A stretch of 64,000 nucleotides of DNA, from assembly GCA_938002965.1 (NCBI GenBank), contig CALKZY010000018.1, positions 186,001 to 250,000 on the forward strand, written 5' to 3'. This document shows positions 8,311 through 24,310 of the stretch, in pieces (positions within the stretch are counted from its first letter, which is position 1; each line of letters begins with the position of its first letter). The notes under the pieces were generated by a model. That model saw only the letters and a list, made by a program, of their open reading frames with translations, did no database searches and was not told where the DNA came from. This DNA comes from an uncultured Acidimicrobiales bacterium (GTDB lineage Bacteria > Actinomycetota > Acidimicrobiia > Acidimicrobiales > SZUA-35). The translations under genes were made by a program, and so were the position numbers.

Positions 8311-10365
8311 GTGAACTCACGTGACATCGAGATTACCTGGCTGGGGAATACCGTCCGTTTTGATATGGACAGTTCACCCGTGGTGATCGGTCGTTCATCG
8401 GCTTCGTCGATCATGATTCCCGACGGGATTGTTTCGCGCCGCCATTTAGTCTTGACATGGACCGGAGAGCGTTGGGACGTCGAGGACGTGTCGACTCATG
8501 GCACCTTCGATCCGATAGGCGTAAAGCTCTCGCGCACCTGGGTCATCGGCTCCGACGGCGCAGTTCGACTCGGCAGCGGAGACGGCACCGAAATCTACTT
8601 TAGGTTGGTTTCGGCTGATGCCCCGCCGCCTATTGACGAGTCGGCGTACGGACCCAAGACCGTTGTGGATTACAGTCCGCCGCCTCGCCCCCGAAGCAGC
8701 GACGGCATGCTGGTGATCCCGGACGAGTCGGTTGTTGACGAGGCCGATCGGGTCGACATTGTCTCGGCCTCGGATCAGCCGTCAGCGCTTCCTGTCGATT
8801 CTCCTGCCATGGCTCAATCGAGTCTTGCCGACTCCCCCGCGGGGGCAAATTCGAACCTTGCCGGGGCTCCCGAATTTCCGCAACCAAACCTGGCCGACCC
8901 CCCAGCCCACGTCGGTGGTGGGCTCGCCCCCGCACCTTCAGCCCACAGCGAGTTGGATGGCCCCTCCATGGTCGACGGCCCGGCCTCTGTGGACGGCCTA
9001 GCCCCTGTGGACGGAACTGTGGTAATGGACGGCCCGGCCGACGGGTCCCAGCTCGTTGATCCGCTGCCCTCGACCCCTGAACCGGAGCTGGATCTGCGCG
9101 GCCCCAACCCGTCTGTAGACCTGAGCGGTTCCGGAGGCCTGGCGTTTCCGCCCCCACCTGATGGCATGTCCGACGACGGCGATCTCCCCAACCCGGCAGA
9201 GACCTTTGTCGAATCGTCCACTCTGCGGCTGCATGTTGACGGCGAGGACTACCTGTTCTTGCCCGGCGTAGAGATCACGATCGGTCGAGATCCAAGCTGC
9301 ACGGTTGTGGTCGATGAGCATCACACCCTGGTGTCACGAAAGCACCTTCGGGTTGTGCATCAGAGTGGCCGCTGGTGGTTCGAGGACATCTCATCGAAGG
9401 GGAGCTACGTCGACGGGCGCGCCTTGTCGGGCCCCTACAAGGCCGAAGGTGCCTTTGTTGTCGAGCTTGGCGATCGAGTTGGAGGAACGCCACTGCGGGT
9501 CGTAACCTCCGGCGAACACAAGGCCCCGCGCAACGTCGCCGCCATCGCCGTGGCCGCCATTGCCGGTGTTGCCCTTCTACTCGTCAGCTTTCTCGCCTGG
9601 TTGATGTTCCGTGGCGGGGCCGACGAGGCGGCAACTCTTGACGACGCCAAGCAGTCAACCGTCATGCTTCTGGCCGGAAACGGGCGAGGATCGGGCTTCT
9701 TTGTTTCTGACTCGTTGATCTTGACAAACCAGCACGTTGCCGCTCTGGCCGACCAGCTGGTCGTGGCGGTGTCGGAAGAATCCGATGAGCCAGCGCAAAT
9801 TCGCTACATCGCTCAGTTGGTTGAGAGCCACCCGTTCCTGGACCTGGCGGTCCTGAGAGTCACCAACAGCGCTCAAGTCAACGAGAGCGGCACCGTCGAC
9901 ATTGGATCGGAGATCGAATCTCTCGACGTGCCAACCCTCGACATCGGCTCATCCGGCGACGTAACGCTGGGTGACGCCATCTTCAGCACCGGTTTCCCCG
10001 GTCGTCTGGCTGTGGCCAGTACCGACGACAGCGGACAACTGCGACTGTCACCGGTTTCAACCAGTCGTGGAGAAGCCGCGAGCTTCACCATTTGGCCGGG
10101 CTGTTCCAATCCTGAATTCGAAAACTTCATCCCGGTCGACGCCCCGGAGGGCGTGACCTGTGACCCTGATGGCGACGTCAATCGAGGTGTCCTCATTGCG
10201 TCGTTCGTCAGCGGAGAGGGAGCCTCGGGTAGCCCGGTTGTCCACGACGGGAAGGTAGTGGCCGTCGTGTTCGCCGGCGAACGGACAGAGCCCAATGTGT
10301 CTCGCAGCATCACCAGCGAGGCGTTTGACGGCTGGCTGGACGAAGTGTTGGCGACCGAGGAGTAG
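8311..10365 (+). CDS. Dual FHA-domain transmembrane trypsin-like serine protease
   Basis: FHA-like blocks VVIGRSSASSIMIPDGIVSRRHLV and ITIGRDPSCTVVVDEHHTLVSRKHL..SSKGSYVDGR; TM IAVAAIAGVALLLVSFLAWLMF; protease motifs ILTNQHVAAL, HPFLDLAVLRV, GASGSPVVHDGKVVAV. Confidence 0.9.
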   Translation: MNSRDIEITWLGNTVRFDMDSSPVVIGRSSASSIMIPDGIVSRRHLVLTWTGERWDVEDVSTHGTFDPIGVKLSRTWVIGSDGAVRLGSGDGTEIYFRLVSADAPPPIDESAYGPKTVVDYSPPPRPRSSDGMLVIPDESVVDEADRVDIVSASDQPSALPVDSPAMAQSSLADSPAGANSNLAGAPEFPQPNLADPPAHVGGGLAPAPSAHSELDGPSMVDGPASVDGLAPVDGTVVMDGPADGSQLVDPLPSTPEPELDLRGPNPSVDLSGSGGLAFPPPPDGMSDDGDLPNPAETFVESSTLRLHVDGEDYLFLPGVEITIGRDPSCTVVVDEHHTLVSRKHLRVVHQSGRWWFEDISSKGSYVDGRALSGPYKAEGAFVVELGDRVGGTPLRVVTSGEHKAPRNVAAIAVAAIAGVALLLVSFLAWLMFRGGADEAATLDDAKQSTVMLLAGNGRGSGFFVSDSLILTNQHVAALADQLVVAVSEESDEPAQIRYIAQLVESHPFLDLAVLRVTNSAQVNESGTVDIGSEIESLDVPTLDIGSSGDVTLGDAIFSTGFPGRLAVASTDDSGQLRLSPVSTSRGEAASFTIWPGCSNPEFENFIPVDAPEGVTCDPDGDVNRGVLIASFVSGEGASGSPVVHDGKVVAVVFAGERTEPNVSRSITSEAFDGWLDEVLATEE

Positions 10366-10523: not shown

Positions 10524-12623
10524 GTGTCCCGTAAAGGAGAGATTCTGAACGTTTCTGGCCTCGCTATCGAGGGCCTGGAAGATGTCGTCCAGATTGGGAC
10601 TGGCGGATCATCGCGTGTTTATCGCGCCCGCCAGACAGCATTGGACCGAGTTGTGGCTGTCAAGGTCATCAACGCCAGCCAGGACCCGAGTGTCGCCCGG
10701 CGGTTCGATCGCGAACGCAAAGCCATGGGACGTCTCTCCAGCCACGAGGGAATCGTTCCGGTCTACAGCACCGGTGTCACCGGTACGGGTGAACCGTACC
10801 TGGTCATGCCCTACTACCCCGATGGATCGCTTCAAGATCAGATAGATGCGGGGCCTGTCCCGTGGCAGATCGCTGTTCGCTATGTCGATGTGGCGGCAGA
10901 AACCATCTCAGTCGCTCATGGAGCCGGAATCGTCCACCTGGACATCAAGCCGGCTAACATCCTGCTGACCCCAAGCGGTGCTCCTCGTATTGCTGACTTT
11001 GGTATCGCCAAGCTGACCTCGTCGACGCACACCGCCCGTACGACCGGCACGGCTTTTACCCCGGCGTATAGCGCCCCCGAGACCTTCCTGGACGGCAAAG
11101 CAACGCCTGCCGCCGACGTCTACGGCCTCGGCGCCACCCTCTGGGCGCTGCTTGTTGGCCATCCGCCGTTCCTGGCTCCGGGCGACGATTCAAATCTGAT
11201 GGCTGTCATCGGCCGCGTAGTGAACAATCCGACCGCGCAGATAAACCATCTCGCACCTCAACAGATATGCGAAGTGGTGTACAAAGCGATGGAGAAAAGG
11301 CCCCAGGACCGCTTCGCCAGCGCCTCGGATTTCTCAGCCGCTCTAAAGCAAGCACTCGAGGCCGGGCAGAATACGGCGGCCAACACGCACGCCGCGGCAG
11401 CTCCTGCCCCAGTCCATGCCGGGGCGAGTACCCAGGTGTTCGCCGCCAGCGGCCCGGTTGTCGCATCGGCCCGCACGATGGAACCGGGTCCAGCTACGGT
11501 CCAACCCTACGACGAGCCGGCTCCGGTGTTCGAAACGGCCCCAACGCCCGGCCGAAGCCTTCTGCAGAGTGAAGCAGAAGTTGCACCTCATGCCGTGGCT
11601 TATCGCGAGCCGGTTCAACGCACACCCCTCGTCGATTTCGACCGCTTCAGGTTCGGACCGGCGTTGGTCGGGCTAATTGCCCTGCTTGGCATGGGAATGC
11701 TGGTGGCGTGGGCACTGAACCGACCGGCGTCAGATGATCTGGCTACCAGCGAGTCCGCTGTCCCAGCGGCTCCATCTGTCACGACGACAACCGAGGCTGT
11801 TCCTGCGGTCGAACCTTCGGTAAATACCCTGATCGGAAGCGGATTCGGAAACGAGTCCGGGACTGCCGACGAAGACTCTACGTCAACAACGGCCACTACT
11901 GTCGAACCTACCACCACGGCAACAACTGAGGTGGAACAGTCGAGTTCAACGGAAACTACCGAGACCACGGTCGAAGAGACGACAACTACGTCCGAAGACA
12001 ACACGACGACCACCGAAGAGACGACCACCACGTCTACGTCTGAGCCACAGGGTGAGCTGCAGGCGCCGGAGGGCGTCGACGCCCAGATGGACGGCACCTC
12101 GGTTCAGTTGACTTGGACCGCACCCACTTCTGGGCCGGCTCCTGAGTCCTATGTCGTGTATCGCGACGGTGAGCCTGTGGCCAACGTCGATAGCTCGCCC
12201 TACTCCGATGACGATGTCCCGCTGGGTGAGCGGTCATACCGCATCGGCTCGGTCAGTGAGGGCCCGGACGCAGTCACCGTACTGTCCAGCGCCGTACGCA
12301 TTGTCGTCGTTGAACAGCCGGTGGAGGAGTTCGCCATCACGGTGACAGTTCTTCGGGTAACCAGCGGTGCCATAACGCTCGAGATCACGGGCAACCAGTG
12401 TGTGTCCGCTTACCGGGTTGGCTACATGGTGACACCGGAACCGGGTGAGCCCGGGGCTCCGCTCGGACCGGTCGTTGAAGACGGCCTTCCATGTCCCGGC
12501 CAGCCGATTCGGATAGCGGGCCTCGATGCCGACACGTCGTATGACATTTCGGTAACGGCACTGAACGAGCTGGGCGAAAGCGCAACGTACCCGCTCCCGA
12601 CGCCCGTGATCACCCAGCCGTAG
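10524..12623 (+). CDS. Membrane Ser/Thr protein kinase with Thr-rich linker and fibronectin type III-like ectodomain
   Basis: GTG start; IGTGGSSRVYRA, VAVKVI, GIVHLDIKPANILLT, IADFGIAKL, YSAPETF, DVYGLGATLWALLVGHPPF; TM VGLIALLGMGMLVAWAL; two FN3-like segments. Confidence 0.93.
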   Translation: MSRKGEILNVSGLAIEGLEDVVQIGTGGSSRVYRARQTALDRVVAVKVINASQDPSVARRFDRERKAMGRLSSHEGIVPVYSTGVTGTGEPYLVMPYYPDGSLQDQIDAGPVPWQIAVRYVDVAAETISVAHGAGIVHLDIKPANILLTPSGAPRIADFGIAKLTSSTHTARTTGTAFTPAYSAPETFLDGKATPAADVYGLGATLWALLVGHPPFLAPGDDSNLMAVIGRVVNNPTAQINHLAPQQICEVVYKAMEKRPQDRFASASDFSAALKQALEAGQNTAANTHAAAAPAPVHAGASTQVFAASGPVVASARTMEPGPATVQPYDEPAPVFETAPTPGRSLLQSEAEVAPHAVAYREPVQRTPLVDFDRFRFGPALVGLIALLGMGMLVAWALNRPASDDLATSESAVPAAPSVTTTTEAVPAVEPSVNTLIGSGFGNESGTADEDSTSTTATTVEPTTTATTEVEQSSSTETTETTVEETTTTSEDNTTTTEETTTTSTSEPQGELQAPEGVDAQMDGTSVQLTWTAPTSGPAPESYVVYRDGEPVANVDSSPYSDDDVPLGERSYRIGSVSEGPDAVTVLSSAVRIVVVEQPVEEFAITVTVLRVTSGAITLEITGNQCVSAYRVGYMVTPEPGEPGAPLGPVVEDGLPCPGQPIRIAGLDADTSYDISVTALNELGESATYPLPTPVITQP

Positions 12624-12776: not shown

Positions 12777-13343
12777 GTGAGTCACTCTATGGGATCAACC
12801 ACGGCCGACGTCGAATTCTGTGAACACGACGAAGTCCCGGCAGCATGTCTTGAATGTCTGGCAATGCCGAAGAAAGTGATCCCTCGACCACCAAGCACTC
12901 CACGTGCCACGAAGAACCCGAGTTCGGCCAATGACAAGATCTCGCCTCTAGCTGGCGACCTCGACATGTCAATGCCCGTCCAAGACGTTGACAAGGCGAT
13001 CGGACTCCCAGAGCTGCCGACACGGGTATTCCCTCACTACCTCCGACGAGGCGGCTGGATCTACCTTCGGACCGGCGAGAAGCTTCAAGCCCGAGTCAAG
13101 GCTGTAAAGGTCATCTGGCAGGACGATCGCTCGGACCTCGCCGATCCCGATCGCCAGCTCGGTTCCGGGATTGCCATTAAGGTGGATCCGCAGACATGGG
13201 GCCCGGTTGACATCCCGCTGGGCGATCTGGCAGATCGTCAGCAAGACGGGTTCCGTTATCTCATGACCAACTCGGACGATTCGGTAACCCACTACCTCGG
13301 TGGTCGGCCCGTTTCAACCGACTCCAATATCGATCTTCGCTAG
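12777..13343 (+). CDS. Hypothetical protein with N-terminal CxHx6CxxC zinc-ribbon-like motif
   Basis: GTG start; VEFCEHDEVPAACLECLAMPKK; C-terminal part LPTRVFPHYLRRGGWIYLRTGEKLQARVKAVKVIWQDD. Co-directional and lying between two kinase-like genes. Confidence 0.7.
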   Translation: MSHSMGSTTADVEFCEHDEVPAACLECLAMPKKVIPRPPSTPRATKNPSSANDKISPLAGDLDMSMPVQDVDKAIGLPELPTRVFPHYLRRGGWIYLRTGEKLQARVKAVKVIWQDDRSDLADPDRQLGSGIAIKVDPQTWGPVDIPLGDLADRQQDGFRYLMTNSDDSVTHYLGGRPVSTDSNIDLR

Positions 13344-13598: not shown

Positions 13599-15398
13599 GT
13601 GGAATCCGGCAGGCGGAAGGTTCCAAGCGTGGCGACCACCACAAGATTTGATATCCCGGGCTACGAGGTGGTACGCCTGCTCGATGAGCTTCGAAACCCC
13701 GTGTATGAAGTTCGCCGCATGCCGTCGGAGGACGTTTTCGTCGCAAAGATCGTCGGCGACGAGTACGAGCCTCACTTGCCCGGCCAGCGGGCCAAGGTGG
13801 CTCGCAGAATCAGTCGCATTGTTGGCACCACAGTCGGCTGGGTTCGAATCGATGACCACGGCCCTACTGCCGACGGTCAGACTTACGTTGTCTCTCCCCT
13901 GTTCGAACGAGGCAGTCTCGCCGATCTATTGGACGACGGTGACCCCACCCCCTGGGCCGATGCCGTTCGTTGGATAGCCGGCGCCTCACTATCGGTTGGA
14001 AACCTTCACGCCGAGGGCGTTGCCCTCGGCTTCTTGCGGCCGTCCTCAATTCTTCTGTCGGATGAGAACGAAGCACTGGTTGCCATCTACGGGTTGGCCA
14101 GCCGCCGCTTCGATGATGGAACGTTCCGATTCGAGGCTCCTGAGGTTGTCGACGGACACCCGCCCGACACTCCCAGTGACACCTACTCGTTGGCCCTCAT
14201 CTTGGCCACTCTTCTTATCGGTCGAACACCGGCGTTCGGCGAATCACTCGATGAGTACATAAGCAACCTGGGGCACAAGTGTCCGGAGCCAATCAGGGTC
14301 GTCATCACTAAGTCGTTGAGCTCCGACCCCGGGGCCCGCCATGCCACCGGGGCTGACTTTGCCTACAGCCTGCGAGGCACCACCGAGGAGATCCTCGCAG
14401 CCGAGTACACGGAACTAACCGTCACAACGCACTTTGACGAACAGGAACTGGCGCAGCATCTTCGCCAGTCCAGAGGTGCTCCTACGCCACCTCGGCTGCC
14501 GCCCGCCACTGAGGACCCGACGACGGTTCACCCGACGAGCCCAGGTGAGCAGACGGGTCCCTTAGCCGACCTGTTCGAGATGGCCTCGGTCACCGCCCCA
14601 ATCGACGCGTCGATTCTCAACGAGATTACGGATGCGGCCGAGAAGGCGAACGATGGCGGGACCGAAATCGCTGGGATAAGCGCCGACGAAGCCCTGGCCG
14701 AGCTCGACGAACTGATCGCGGATACGACCGACAACCCTTTTGACGTGCCGTCCATTGACGCCCCTGCCGAATCGTTGGCAGCGGCCTCCGATGAGCTTGA
14801 ATCGTCACATGAAGGTTCGTCTGACGAGACCGAGGATCGCCACGACGACAACGTTCCCTTTATTGCATCTCCCACTGCCGGGGCTAGGACTCAAACCGCC
14901 TCCCCTGACCGGATGCAAAACGTCGCGGTGCGAGTCGAGAACTTCTGGTTCGCAAACCGCCGATCGATCGCGTCGACATTAACCGCACTCGCTGTAGGGG
15001 CAATTGGAGCGGTAGCGATTGTTCTCGCTTTCCGAAGCTACCAGGATGGTCAAACAGCGGCCGTTGAAGGTGCACCGCCGCCGACAACCGAGCCTGTGGT
15101 GATGGCCAATCTCAACAACGATGTGGTATTCATCACCGAACCTCCTCAGACAAATACCACGACGACTACTGCCCCGCCCAGGCGCCGCACCACTACCTCA
15201 GCGGCACCGTCCTCCACCACCGGCACAACGGCAAAGCCTGCCGACGACAAGAAGGCGAAGCCTGACGACGAGGATGATACACCAGCGACGACAGAGGCCG
15301 CCCCTAGCCGATCATCAGCGGTGACGGTCACCGTCACGATTCCACCTGACGTTGACGAGGAGAACGGAAACCGACGGCGCCGGGGCCGAAATCCCTAG
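13599..15398 (+). CDS. Membrane protein with Ser/Thr kinase-like (predicted pseudokinase) domain
   Basis: Kinase-like layout (VFVAKIV; SLADLLDDG; LHAEGVALGFLRPSSILL; APEVVDGHPPDTPSDTYSLALILATLLIGRTP) but HRD and DFG aspartates are replaced (ALGFLRPSS; AIYGLAS). TM STLTALAVGAIGAVAIVLAF and Thr-rich tail. Confidence 0.85.
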   Translation: MESGRRKVPSVATTTRFDIPGYEVVRLLDELRNPVYEVRRMPSEDVFVAKIVGDEYEPHLPGQRAKVARRISRIVGTTVGWVRIDDHGPTADGQTYVVSPLFERGSLADLLDDGDPTPWADAVRWIAGASLSVGNLHAEGVALGFLRPSSILLSDENEALVAIYGLASRRFDDGTFRFEAPEVVDGHPPDTPSDTYSLALILATLLIGRTPAFGESLDEYISNLGHKCPEPIRVVITKSLSSDPGARHATGADFAYSLRGTTEEILAAEYTELTVTTHFDEQELAQHLRQSRGAPTPPRLPPATEDPTTVHPTSPGEQTGPLADLFEMASVTAPIDASILNEITDAAEKANDGGTEIAGISADEALAELDELIADTTDNPFDVPSIDAPAESLAAASDELESSHEGSSDETEDRHDDNVPFIASPTAGARTQTASPDRMQNVAVRVENFWFANRRSIASTLTALAVGAIGAVAIVLAFRSYQDGQTAAVEGAPPPTTEPVVMANLNNDVVFITEPPQTNTTTTTAPPRRRTTTSAAPSSTTGTTAKPADDKKAKPDDEDDTPATTEAAPSRSSAVTVTVTIPPDVDEENGNRRRRGRNP

Positions 15399-21670: not shown

Positions 21671-24310
21671 ATGAATCGCAAACTCGAAAGACTCTCCGCC
21701 GTACTTGTCGCCGTGGTTCTCACGGCTTCGATTGTTGTCGGAACCTCCCCCGCAGAGGCCGCTGAGGCAGCTGACGTCGACGTTTCGAGGCTAAACATGG
21801 TTCCCGAGCGGATGTGGGGTGTCTCAGGTCAAACACCGGATCAAACACAAACCCAGTCGCTCGACGTCCTGGTCTGGGACTTCGCCCAGATAGGCGACCG
21901 AATGTTCGTGGGTGGGGCTTTCCTCAATGTCCAGGAGCGAAAAGACTCCGAGCCCATCCCGCAGTCGTACGTCGCCGCCTTTGACGTCGACACCGGAGAC
22001 TGGATCGACACGTGGAGGCCAACATTCGATAGGGCCGTCTACGCTCTAGACGTATCCCCTACCGGCGACCTCTTGGTGGGCGGTGAATTTGAATCGGTCA
22101 ATGGCATCGGTCGCGAGGGTCTGGTAGCCCTCGACCCGACCTCCGGCGAGATTACCGGTTTCCCCGGTTCGGTCGAACGTCCTTGGTCTGAGTTCCGGGC
22201 AATGGTCCGCGAGATAGACGTGGTTGGCCACCACATCTACGTCGCCGGCAACTTCTCCCACATGAACGGCGCCGGCGGAACACGCCAGCGGGCCTTCAAG
22301 GCTGGCCGCTTTCTCGACGGTGCGGGAACGCTGGACCCTGTCTGGTTGCCGATGGTGACGGGCTCCGGAGTATGGGGCATGGACGTCAATGAATCCCGCA
22401 ACGAGGTGGTATTGGCCGGCTATTTCAGTGCGGTCAACAACGAATTGAATTCCGGATACTTTCATACCGTTAATGCCGCCAACGGCGGATCCAGCCCGGG
22501 CAAACTCCAGCTGCCGAGAAACTACCCCCGTTCTCAGCCGGAAATGTTCGACGTCGCATACGGGTCGGGAACGGTCTTCGCCATCGGCGAACAACACATC
22601 GCCCAGGTCCTTCGAGCCGACAATCATGAAATGATTGGCTATCACCACACCGGCGTCGGCAATGATGGCTTCAGCTACGGCAGCGGCTTCGCCGGAGGCG
22701 CCTACCAGGTGGCCGAGCGAGTGGGCGACGTTGTCATCGCCGGCTGCCACTGCACGTTCTCCATCAGAGACGGCAAAGTCTCCCACTATTCGTCGTTCAC
22801 CGGTCAGCGAACTCCGCACCGTCTGGCGATGGCCTACGATGCGGCCAGCGGAGAGCTCGTCGAGGACTTCATGCCTGACATCAACAGCCCGCAAGACGGT
22901 ACATGGGCTGTCGGAAGCGACACCAACGGCTGTCTCTACCTTGGCGGTGACTTCCACGTCGGTGGCGTGGACAGCGGACTCAGCCGATGGCTAGGTGGAT
23001 TCGGCAAGTTCTGCCCCGACGAAGAGCCAGTGGAAGACAACGTTGTAGATTGGCAGCTGATCGAGCCTCGCTCCACATGGAAGTTCGACGACAACGGCGA
23101 CTCGATCTCTCCCGAGTGGAAGCTCCCGAACTTCGACGATGGGACATGGGCCGAGGGTCGAGGTGAACTTGGCTTCGGCGACGGCGACGAAACGACGTTG
23201 GTCGAGCCCGGTCACGTCACCTACTACTTCCGAAAGACTTTCAACTTCGAAGGCTCGCCACCCGAGCGACTTGTGCTCGATCTCAAGTCTGACGACGGAT
23301 CCGTGGTCTACCTAAACGGAGTAGAGGTACTTCGCGAAAACATGCCCGATGGGGTTATCTCATACACGACCGTCGCCAACAACTTCAAGAGCGAGCTTGA
23401 GGAAGGCTTTCAATCCTTCGAGCTGCCGCCCGATGCGCTAGCTCAAGGCACAAACGTACTTGCCATTGAAGTCCACAACTTCTGGTCTGGTAACTCCGAC
23501 CTTGGTTTCGACGTCGAGATGAACGCAGCAGGAATGCCTGCTGGTGAAGAACCGGCGCCTCAGCCCGAACCCGAGCCAGAACCCGAACCCGAACCCGAAC
23601 CACAACCCGAACCCGAACCACAACCCAAACCCGAACCCGAGCCACAACCCGAACCCGAGCCACAACCCGAGCCAGAACCACAACCCGAGCCAGAACCACA
23701 ACCCGAGCCAGAACCCGAGCCCGAGCCAGAACCCGAGCCCGAGCCAGAACCCGAGCCAGAACCCGAGCCCGAGCCAGAACCCGAGCCCGAGCCAGAACCC
23801 GAGCCCGAGCCCGAGCCCGTACGGCAGACAGCGCCGTTTATGACTCTTACCTCCCGCTGGAAGTACGCCTACGCCAGCGAAACCGGCGCACCAATAGACT
23901 GGAAGGCTGGCCTGCGGGGCGAAGAGTTCCGAGCGCAATTCGGATACGGCGAAGGCGACGAGACAACCGTGCTCGAGCCGGACATGGATGCTTACTACTT
24001 CACAAAGAAGTTCGACGTCAACGTTCCGGACTTCTACCCAACACTTGACATGTCGCTACTGGCCGACGATGGCGCGGTCGTCTACCTCAACGGTGAAGAG
24101 GTCTATCGACATCAGATGCCCGAGGGTCCGATCACCTCGAAGAGCCGACCCACAGTCTGGGCCAGCGGTGACGCCGAGCGAATACCCATCGAGGTGATGA
24201 TCTCCGGTAAAAATCTCATTGAGGGAGTCAACGTCATTGCGGTCGAAGTGCACAACTTCTCCACCGCCAGCCGCGATCTCAGCTTCTCGCTAGCACTCAC
24301 ACCGAGCTAG
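21671..24310 (+). CDS. Secreted repeat/propeller-like surface protein with two copies of a beta-rich module separated by a Pro-Glu linker
   Basis: Signal peptide [30 protein letters not shown]; repeated GGxF/GNF blade-like motifs; two modules ending [29 protein letters not shown] and [29 protein letters not shown]; intervening (EP/QP)n. Confidence 0.85.
23561..23820 (+). repeat. Low-complexity GAACCC/GAGCCA hexamer repeat encoding Pro-Glu/Gln linker
   Basis: Visible tandem GAACCCGAACCC / GAGCCAGAACCC units encoding [12 protein letters not shown]... Confidence 0.95.

Follow-up and report, generated by a model that had tools for sequence, protein, structure and literature searches.

Among the pseudokinases described in bacteria, the ActPs3 type, that of MviN, shows degradation of each of the three catalytic motifs, the beta-3 Lys (VALT) among them, along with a deletion in the activation loop; PknB phosphorylates the C-terminal tail of MviN, and FhaA binds this tail (PMC12599244). 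In ActPs2, the beta-3 Lys is replaced by Arg and the HRD Asp by Asn, and the activation loop carries an insertion of about 250 aa; in the GLW group, GLW replaces HRD and a poly-Leu stretch with Leu/Trp is found at beta-3 (PMC12599244). The EssB/YukC pseudokinase of type VII secretion is a single-TM protein with its cytoplasmic pseudokinase as a scaffold, and SidJ and SelO are kinase folds able to change chemistry (PMC12599244).

Here, we describe a pseudokinase encoded in a 64,000-nucleotide stretch of DNA (the window) from an uncultured Acidimicrobiales bacterium, which we set apart from ActPs1, ActPs2, ActPs3, and GLW by the published definitions of these groups (PMC12599244). Like MviN (ActPs3, Mycobacterium tuberculosis), it is actinobacterial and membrane-linked, with degraded catalytic motifs and the shortened activation loop that marks ActPs3, and its likely partners are an STPK and FHA proteins, one of the latter being encoded nearby. 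In contrast to MviN, it keeps the beta-3 Lys (13/14 orthologs, including the window copy), has no lipid-flippase part, and originated from a local STPK. ActPs1, ActPs2, and GLW are likewise pseudokinases derived from bacterial STKs, and a C-terminal TM is frequent in ActPs2 and GLW, but their motif patterns differ from that of the window protein: the retained Lys separates it from ActPs1; the Lys, the change of HRD to LGx, and the shortened activation loop separate it from ActPs2; and the Lys, together with the LG or FG plus variable residue found in the HRD region across its family, separates it from GLW. EssB/YukC resembles it in combining a single TM with a cytoplasmic pseudokinase, but belongs to Firmicutes, and no sequence closeness to the window protein was found. 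Because each of ActPs1, ActPs2, ActPs3, and GLW departs from it on at least one motif, mainly through the kept beta-3 Lys, the protein appears to represent a new, narrowly spread lineage of bSTK-type pseudokinases. Closest in sequence is the PknB-like STPK of the same gene cluster, which shares the kinase-linker-TM-Fn3-like layout but differs in having every catalytic motif and the activation-loop threonines.

Layout of the pseudokinase and residues lost from its kinase fold

The reading frame at 13599-15398 (+ strand) is open and translates to 599 aa. The likelier start is the GTG at 13629, as the purine-rich GGCGGAAGG lies just upstream, the ORF of the G010 ortholog starts there, and the G007 ortholog has an ATG there; the protein is therefore probably ~589 aa. 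The features of the gene and its neighbors are as follows.

8311..10365, + strand: FHA-FHA-TM-trypsin-like protease, constant neighbor of the pseudokinase (Pfam, synteny)
10524..12623, + strand: adjacent active STPK with HLDIKPAN, DFG, a TTG activation loop, a TM, and an Fn3 C-terminus (Pfam, profile scores, tree, alignment)
12777..13343, + strand: p188, conserved cluster protein with a C-x-H...C-x-x-C N-terminus (synteny, homology searches, structure model)
13629..15398, + strand: pseudokinase gene (ORF translation and ortholog starts; read from 13599 in the earlier note)
13647..14384, + strand: kinase-fold domain, residues 17-262 (Pfam, alignment of 14 orthologs, AlphaFold, Foldseek)
13746..13748, + strand: retained beta-3 lysine, K50 (ortholog alignment: Lys in 13/14, Arg in one)
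13770..13781, + strand: PHLP, residues 58-61, in the beta-3/alpha-C segment (alignment: both prolines invariant)
14025..14033, + strand: LGF replacing HRD, with F145 at the catalytic Asp (translation and column comparison)
14085..14093, + strand: IYG replacing DFG (translation and column comparison)
14103..14120, + strand: RRFDDG, residues 169-174, signature of the family within the shortened activation segment (ortholog alignment; pLDDT < 50)
14385..14963, + strand: variable cytoplasmic linker, residues 263-455 (45-48% identity to the nearest orthologs versus 74-80% for the kinase domain)
14964..15041, + strand: single transmembrane helix, residues about 456-481 (hydropathy)
15042..15395, + strand: Thr/Pro-rich outer tail, without the C-terminal Fn3-like domain seen in four orthologs (hydropathy and ortholog comparison)

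Several lines of evidence indicate a bSTK-type kinase fold. Pfam PF00069 scored 37.5 bits against a cut-off of 31.7 over residues 93-227, AlphaFold modeled the domain as a kinase fold (mean pLDDT 85.7, pTM 0.84), and the best PDB matches of this model in Foldseek were PknB and PknI of M. tuberculosis, with PknB again the first match of the family profile (98 bits, E 5e-27). On translation, the catalytic loop reads LHAEGVALGFLRPSSILL, with IYG at the DFG position. The earlier note, made from the sequence alone, had described a membrane pseudokinase with a degraded catalytic loop and IYG; translation, PF00069, the AlphaFold model, and column comparison confirm this description, and the one TM helix supports the proposed anchor.

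Residues were called by column-by-column comparison with the adjacent active STPK (10524-12623), which keeps HLDIKPAN and DFG, as the earlier note had said. In the window pseudokinase, the HRD His is replaced by Leu and the HRD Asp by F145, the catalytic-loop Lys by Arg, the catalytic Asn by Ser, the DFG Asp by I163, and the alpha-C Glu by Val, the glycines of the Gly-rich loop are gone, and the activation loop is ~10 residues shorter than that of the STPK, with its TT deleted. K50, the APE Pro-Glu, the alpha-F Asp, and the C-lobe Arg are kept, in line with the claim that the APE and C-lobe layout remain. The catalytic Asn and the DFG Asp are the two canonical metal ligands of kinases. With both missing, normal Mg-ATP phosphotransfer would be very unlikely, and the sequence supports a putative non-catalytic role. 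The further claim, of a loss confined to this copy, is borne out by 18 of the 20 kinase domains in this genome, which retain HxD...N and D[FLIV]G, but not by L116, which also reads HRS. This second kinase-fold protein (G000:C17:82444-83181) has HRSIRPGN (Asp to Ser) with DVG intact, and an FHA gene lies ~1 kb away at C17:84171.

Distribution and conservation of the pseudokinase family

The gene was found in 14 genomes, comprising the window's species and 13 others from one uncultured Acidimicrobiales family: 11 of the 12 members of the genus, both members of genus g3, and the single g7 member. In the twelfth genome of the genus, the contig stops at the STPK. Named ortholog records are metagenome-assembled Acidimicrobiales. 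Pseudokinases scored 308-366 bits against the family profile, and the next matches (≤ 196 bits) were active STPKs, mostly those of the cluster. No match at E ≤ 1e-40 was found outside the family among 395 genomes of the class, and two weak matches elsewhere had 22-30% identity; an initial scan of genome contigs with the single pseudokinase protein as query gave no match. A literature search found no paper on Acidimicrobiia pseudokinases.

Across the orthologs, the DFG Asp, catalytic Asn, HRD His, and alpha-C Glu are absent in 14/14, so that the lack of at least one of the beta-3 Lys, HRD Asp, and DFG Asp is conserved, and R-x-F-D-D-G is present in 14/14 (RRFDDG in 13/14, the second R varying). 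The HRD Asp is retained in seven orthologs and missing from the other seven, with D, F, R, Y, C, G, or N at this position. The description of the protein as lacking both aspartates therefore fits the window's sub-lineage and not the whole family: loss of the DFG Asp and catalytic Asn is fixed, but the HRD Asp was lost three times. Outside the kinase domain, the G005 ortholog has lost the TM helix and several species lack the Fn3-like domain. A repeated short motif like LPxGLxDI occurs in the linkers of L042, L043, L048, and L049 and is absent from the window copy.

The pseudokinase is kept under purifying selection, with a dN/dS of ~0.05-0.12 in both the kinase-fold domain and the outer region, although dS is near saturation. 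Its domain has a dN about six times that of the STPK domain. Such fast evolution, an HRD Asp lost more than once, an Fn3-like domain missing from several species, and a TM helix missing from one species are what might be expected of a decaying gene on its way out. Set against this, 14 species have intact frames and invariant motifs at a dN/dS of ~0.1, and we consider decay highly improbable. The earlier note had held that orthologs retaining D residues would signify recent decay; the DFG Asp is retained in 0/14 and the HRD Asp in 7/14, and recent decay is ruled out by the orthologs together with dN/dS. A frameshift or assembly error as the source of the motif loss is likewise ruled out, as independently assembled genomes share the motifs. 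Retention in at least 14 related uncultured actinobacteria instead argues for a real, probably regulatory pseudokinase.

Duplication of the neighboring STPK and the order of losses

In a tree of the pseudokinases, the cluster STPKs, and 18 other kinases of the window's genome, the pseudokinases formed one clade (100/100) that grouped with the cluster STPKs against the remaining kinases (99/98). The closest relative of the pseudokinase is thus the active STPK family of the same cluster, and it arose by duplication of that STPK. The Fn3-like C-termini of four pseudokinase orthologs match the STPK C-terminus (hhalign 96.7%, E 3.5e-10), so the duplication probably took in the entire gene.

By parsimony on this tree, the HRD Asp was lost three times, and an AU test rejected a single clade of HRD-Asp losers (p = 0.0002). 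As the DFG Asp is gone in all orthologs and HRD Asp losses were multiple, the DFG side died first, once, and the HRD Asp was lost later, at least three times. The catalytic Asn, the alpha-C Glu, and the Gly loop went in the first step together with the DFG Asp, and losses of the HRD Asp followed more than once. The metal-binding residues and several of those for phosphate transfer had gone before the genera split.

Gene neighborhood

The FHA-FHA-TM-protease gene lies near the pseudokinase in all 12 loci with enough contig, and in 11 of these, the active STPK and p188 lie between the two, with the STPK 0.9-7 kb from the pseudokinase. The adjacent STPK is missing in G017, and together with the lost TM helix in G005, this implies that neither the neighbor nor the anchor is strictly required. 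SNF2 helicase and SWIM zinc-finger genes occupy the usual STPK/p188 place in G017 (L047:1764-6460).

p188 is 58-90% identical across the group and has no Pfam or NCBIfam match. It occurs in 25 of the 39 genomes of its family, some of which have just a weaker relative, and nowhere else in a 198-genome sample of the class; its structure model is weak (pLDDT 66.7) and gave no PDB match. Seven species encode a ~230-aa protein whose helix-turn-helix hits are weak and whose N-terminus looks FHA-like by eye (L043:9046-9735 and orthologs), in six of them between p188 and the pseudokinase. The same query that matches in these relatives found no such protein in the window's genome, and a relative of the protein adjoins a cluster-type STPK in G019 and G029. 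A tie between this gene and HRD-Asp retention was considered and rejected, since a close ortholog in 5/7 retainers versus 2/7 losers involves too few and too related species.

No T7SS genes were recognized in the pseudokinase neighborhood, and PADLOC defence-system matches (PD-T4-6, mad6) were rejected as reflecting the general kinase fold. Elsewhere in the window, a long Pro-Glu repeat (PEPEPEP...) at 23400-23940 lies within a probably secreted protein (21671-24310).

Possible roles of the pseudokinase

On balance, we think it probable that the pseudokinase is a catalytically dead, membrane-anchored paralogue of the adjacent STPK that acts as a non-catalytic partner in an STPK/FHA-FHA-TM-protease module. 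It would serve as a partner or scaffold of the active STPK in envelope phospho-signaling, its kinase-fold domain docking to the STPK and/or other module proteins through RRFDDG and the beta-3/alpha-C segment and thereby setting STPK activity or bringing substrates close; the linker, which is disordered, may become phosphorylated and be recognized by the FHA domains. In the AlphaFold monomer, pLDDT falls below 50 at residues 167-174 and 58-63, where the invariant RRFDDG and EPxLP segments lie, and segments so strongly conserved yet undefined in a monomer model have the look expected of a docking surface. The scaffold or allosteric sensor suggested in the earlier note is likewise a putative role.

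By analogy, the pseudokinase may work like MviN of M. tuberculosis. The mycobacterial comparison, already drawn in the earlier note, is useful as a possible mode of working but not as a sign of kinship, given the beta-3 Lys kept in 13/14 orthologs and the descent from its own neighbor kinase; the phrase "MviN-associated" was also inexact, as the pseudokinase domain belongs to MviN itself. Taken further, the analogy would make the protein an adaptor with no effect on kinase activity: the STPK would phosphorylate its linker or tail, which would recruit the FHA-protease. The place of the FHA-FHA-TM-protease as the most constant neighbor, the long, Thr-rich linker, and the precedent of the MviN tail, phosphorylated by PknB and bound by FhaA (PMC12599244), are consistent with this, but conservation is lowest in the linker (45-48% identity among near orthologs) and highest in the domain and RRFDDG, which places the conserved function in the domain and makes a pure adaptor rather unlikely.

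The retention of the beta-3 Lys in 13/14 orthologs and the near invariance of RRFDDG despite the missing canonical metal ligands could also reflect a new activity, or a nucleotide or other ligand bound at a rearranged site with K50 and the two aspartates of RRFDDG, for which SidJ and SelO offer precedents of changed kinase-fold chemistry (PMC12599244). We regard this as improbable, given the loss of the Gly loop, alpha-C Glu, catalytic Asn, and DFG Asp, the variable HRD Asp position, and the low confidence with which the AlphaFold model places RRFDDG. A fold rebuilt around K50 and these aspartates to carry out a non-kinase reaction, or to sense an intracellular small molecule and relay this to the neighboring STPK, seems more improbable still.

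Bacterial pseudokinases are little studied, and a live kinase and its dead duplicate lying close together in a dozen species form a clean natural series in which the order of losses is readable. With this system, one could ask directly whether pseudokinases of bacteria control a particular partner kinase in the way that many of their eukaryotic counterparts do.
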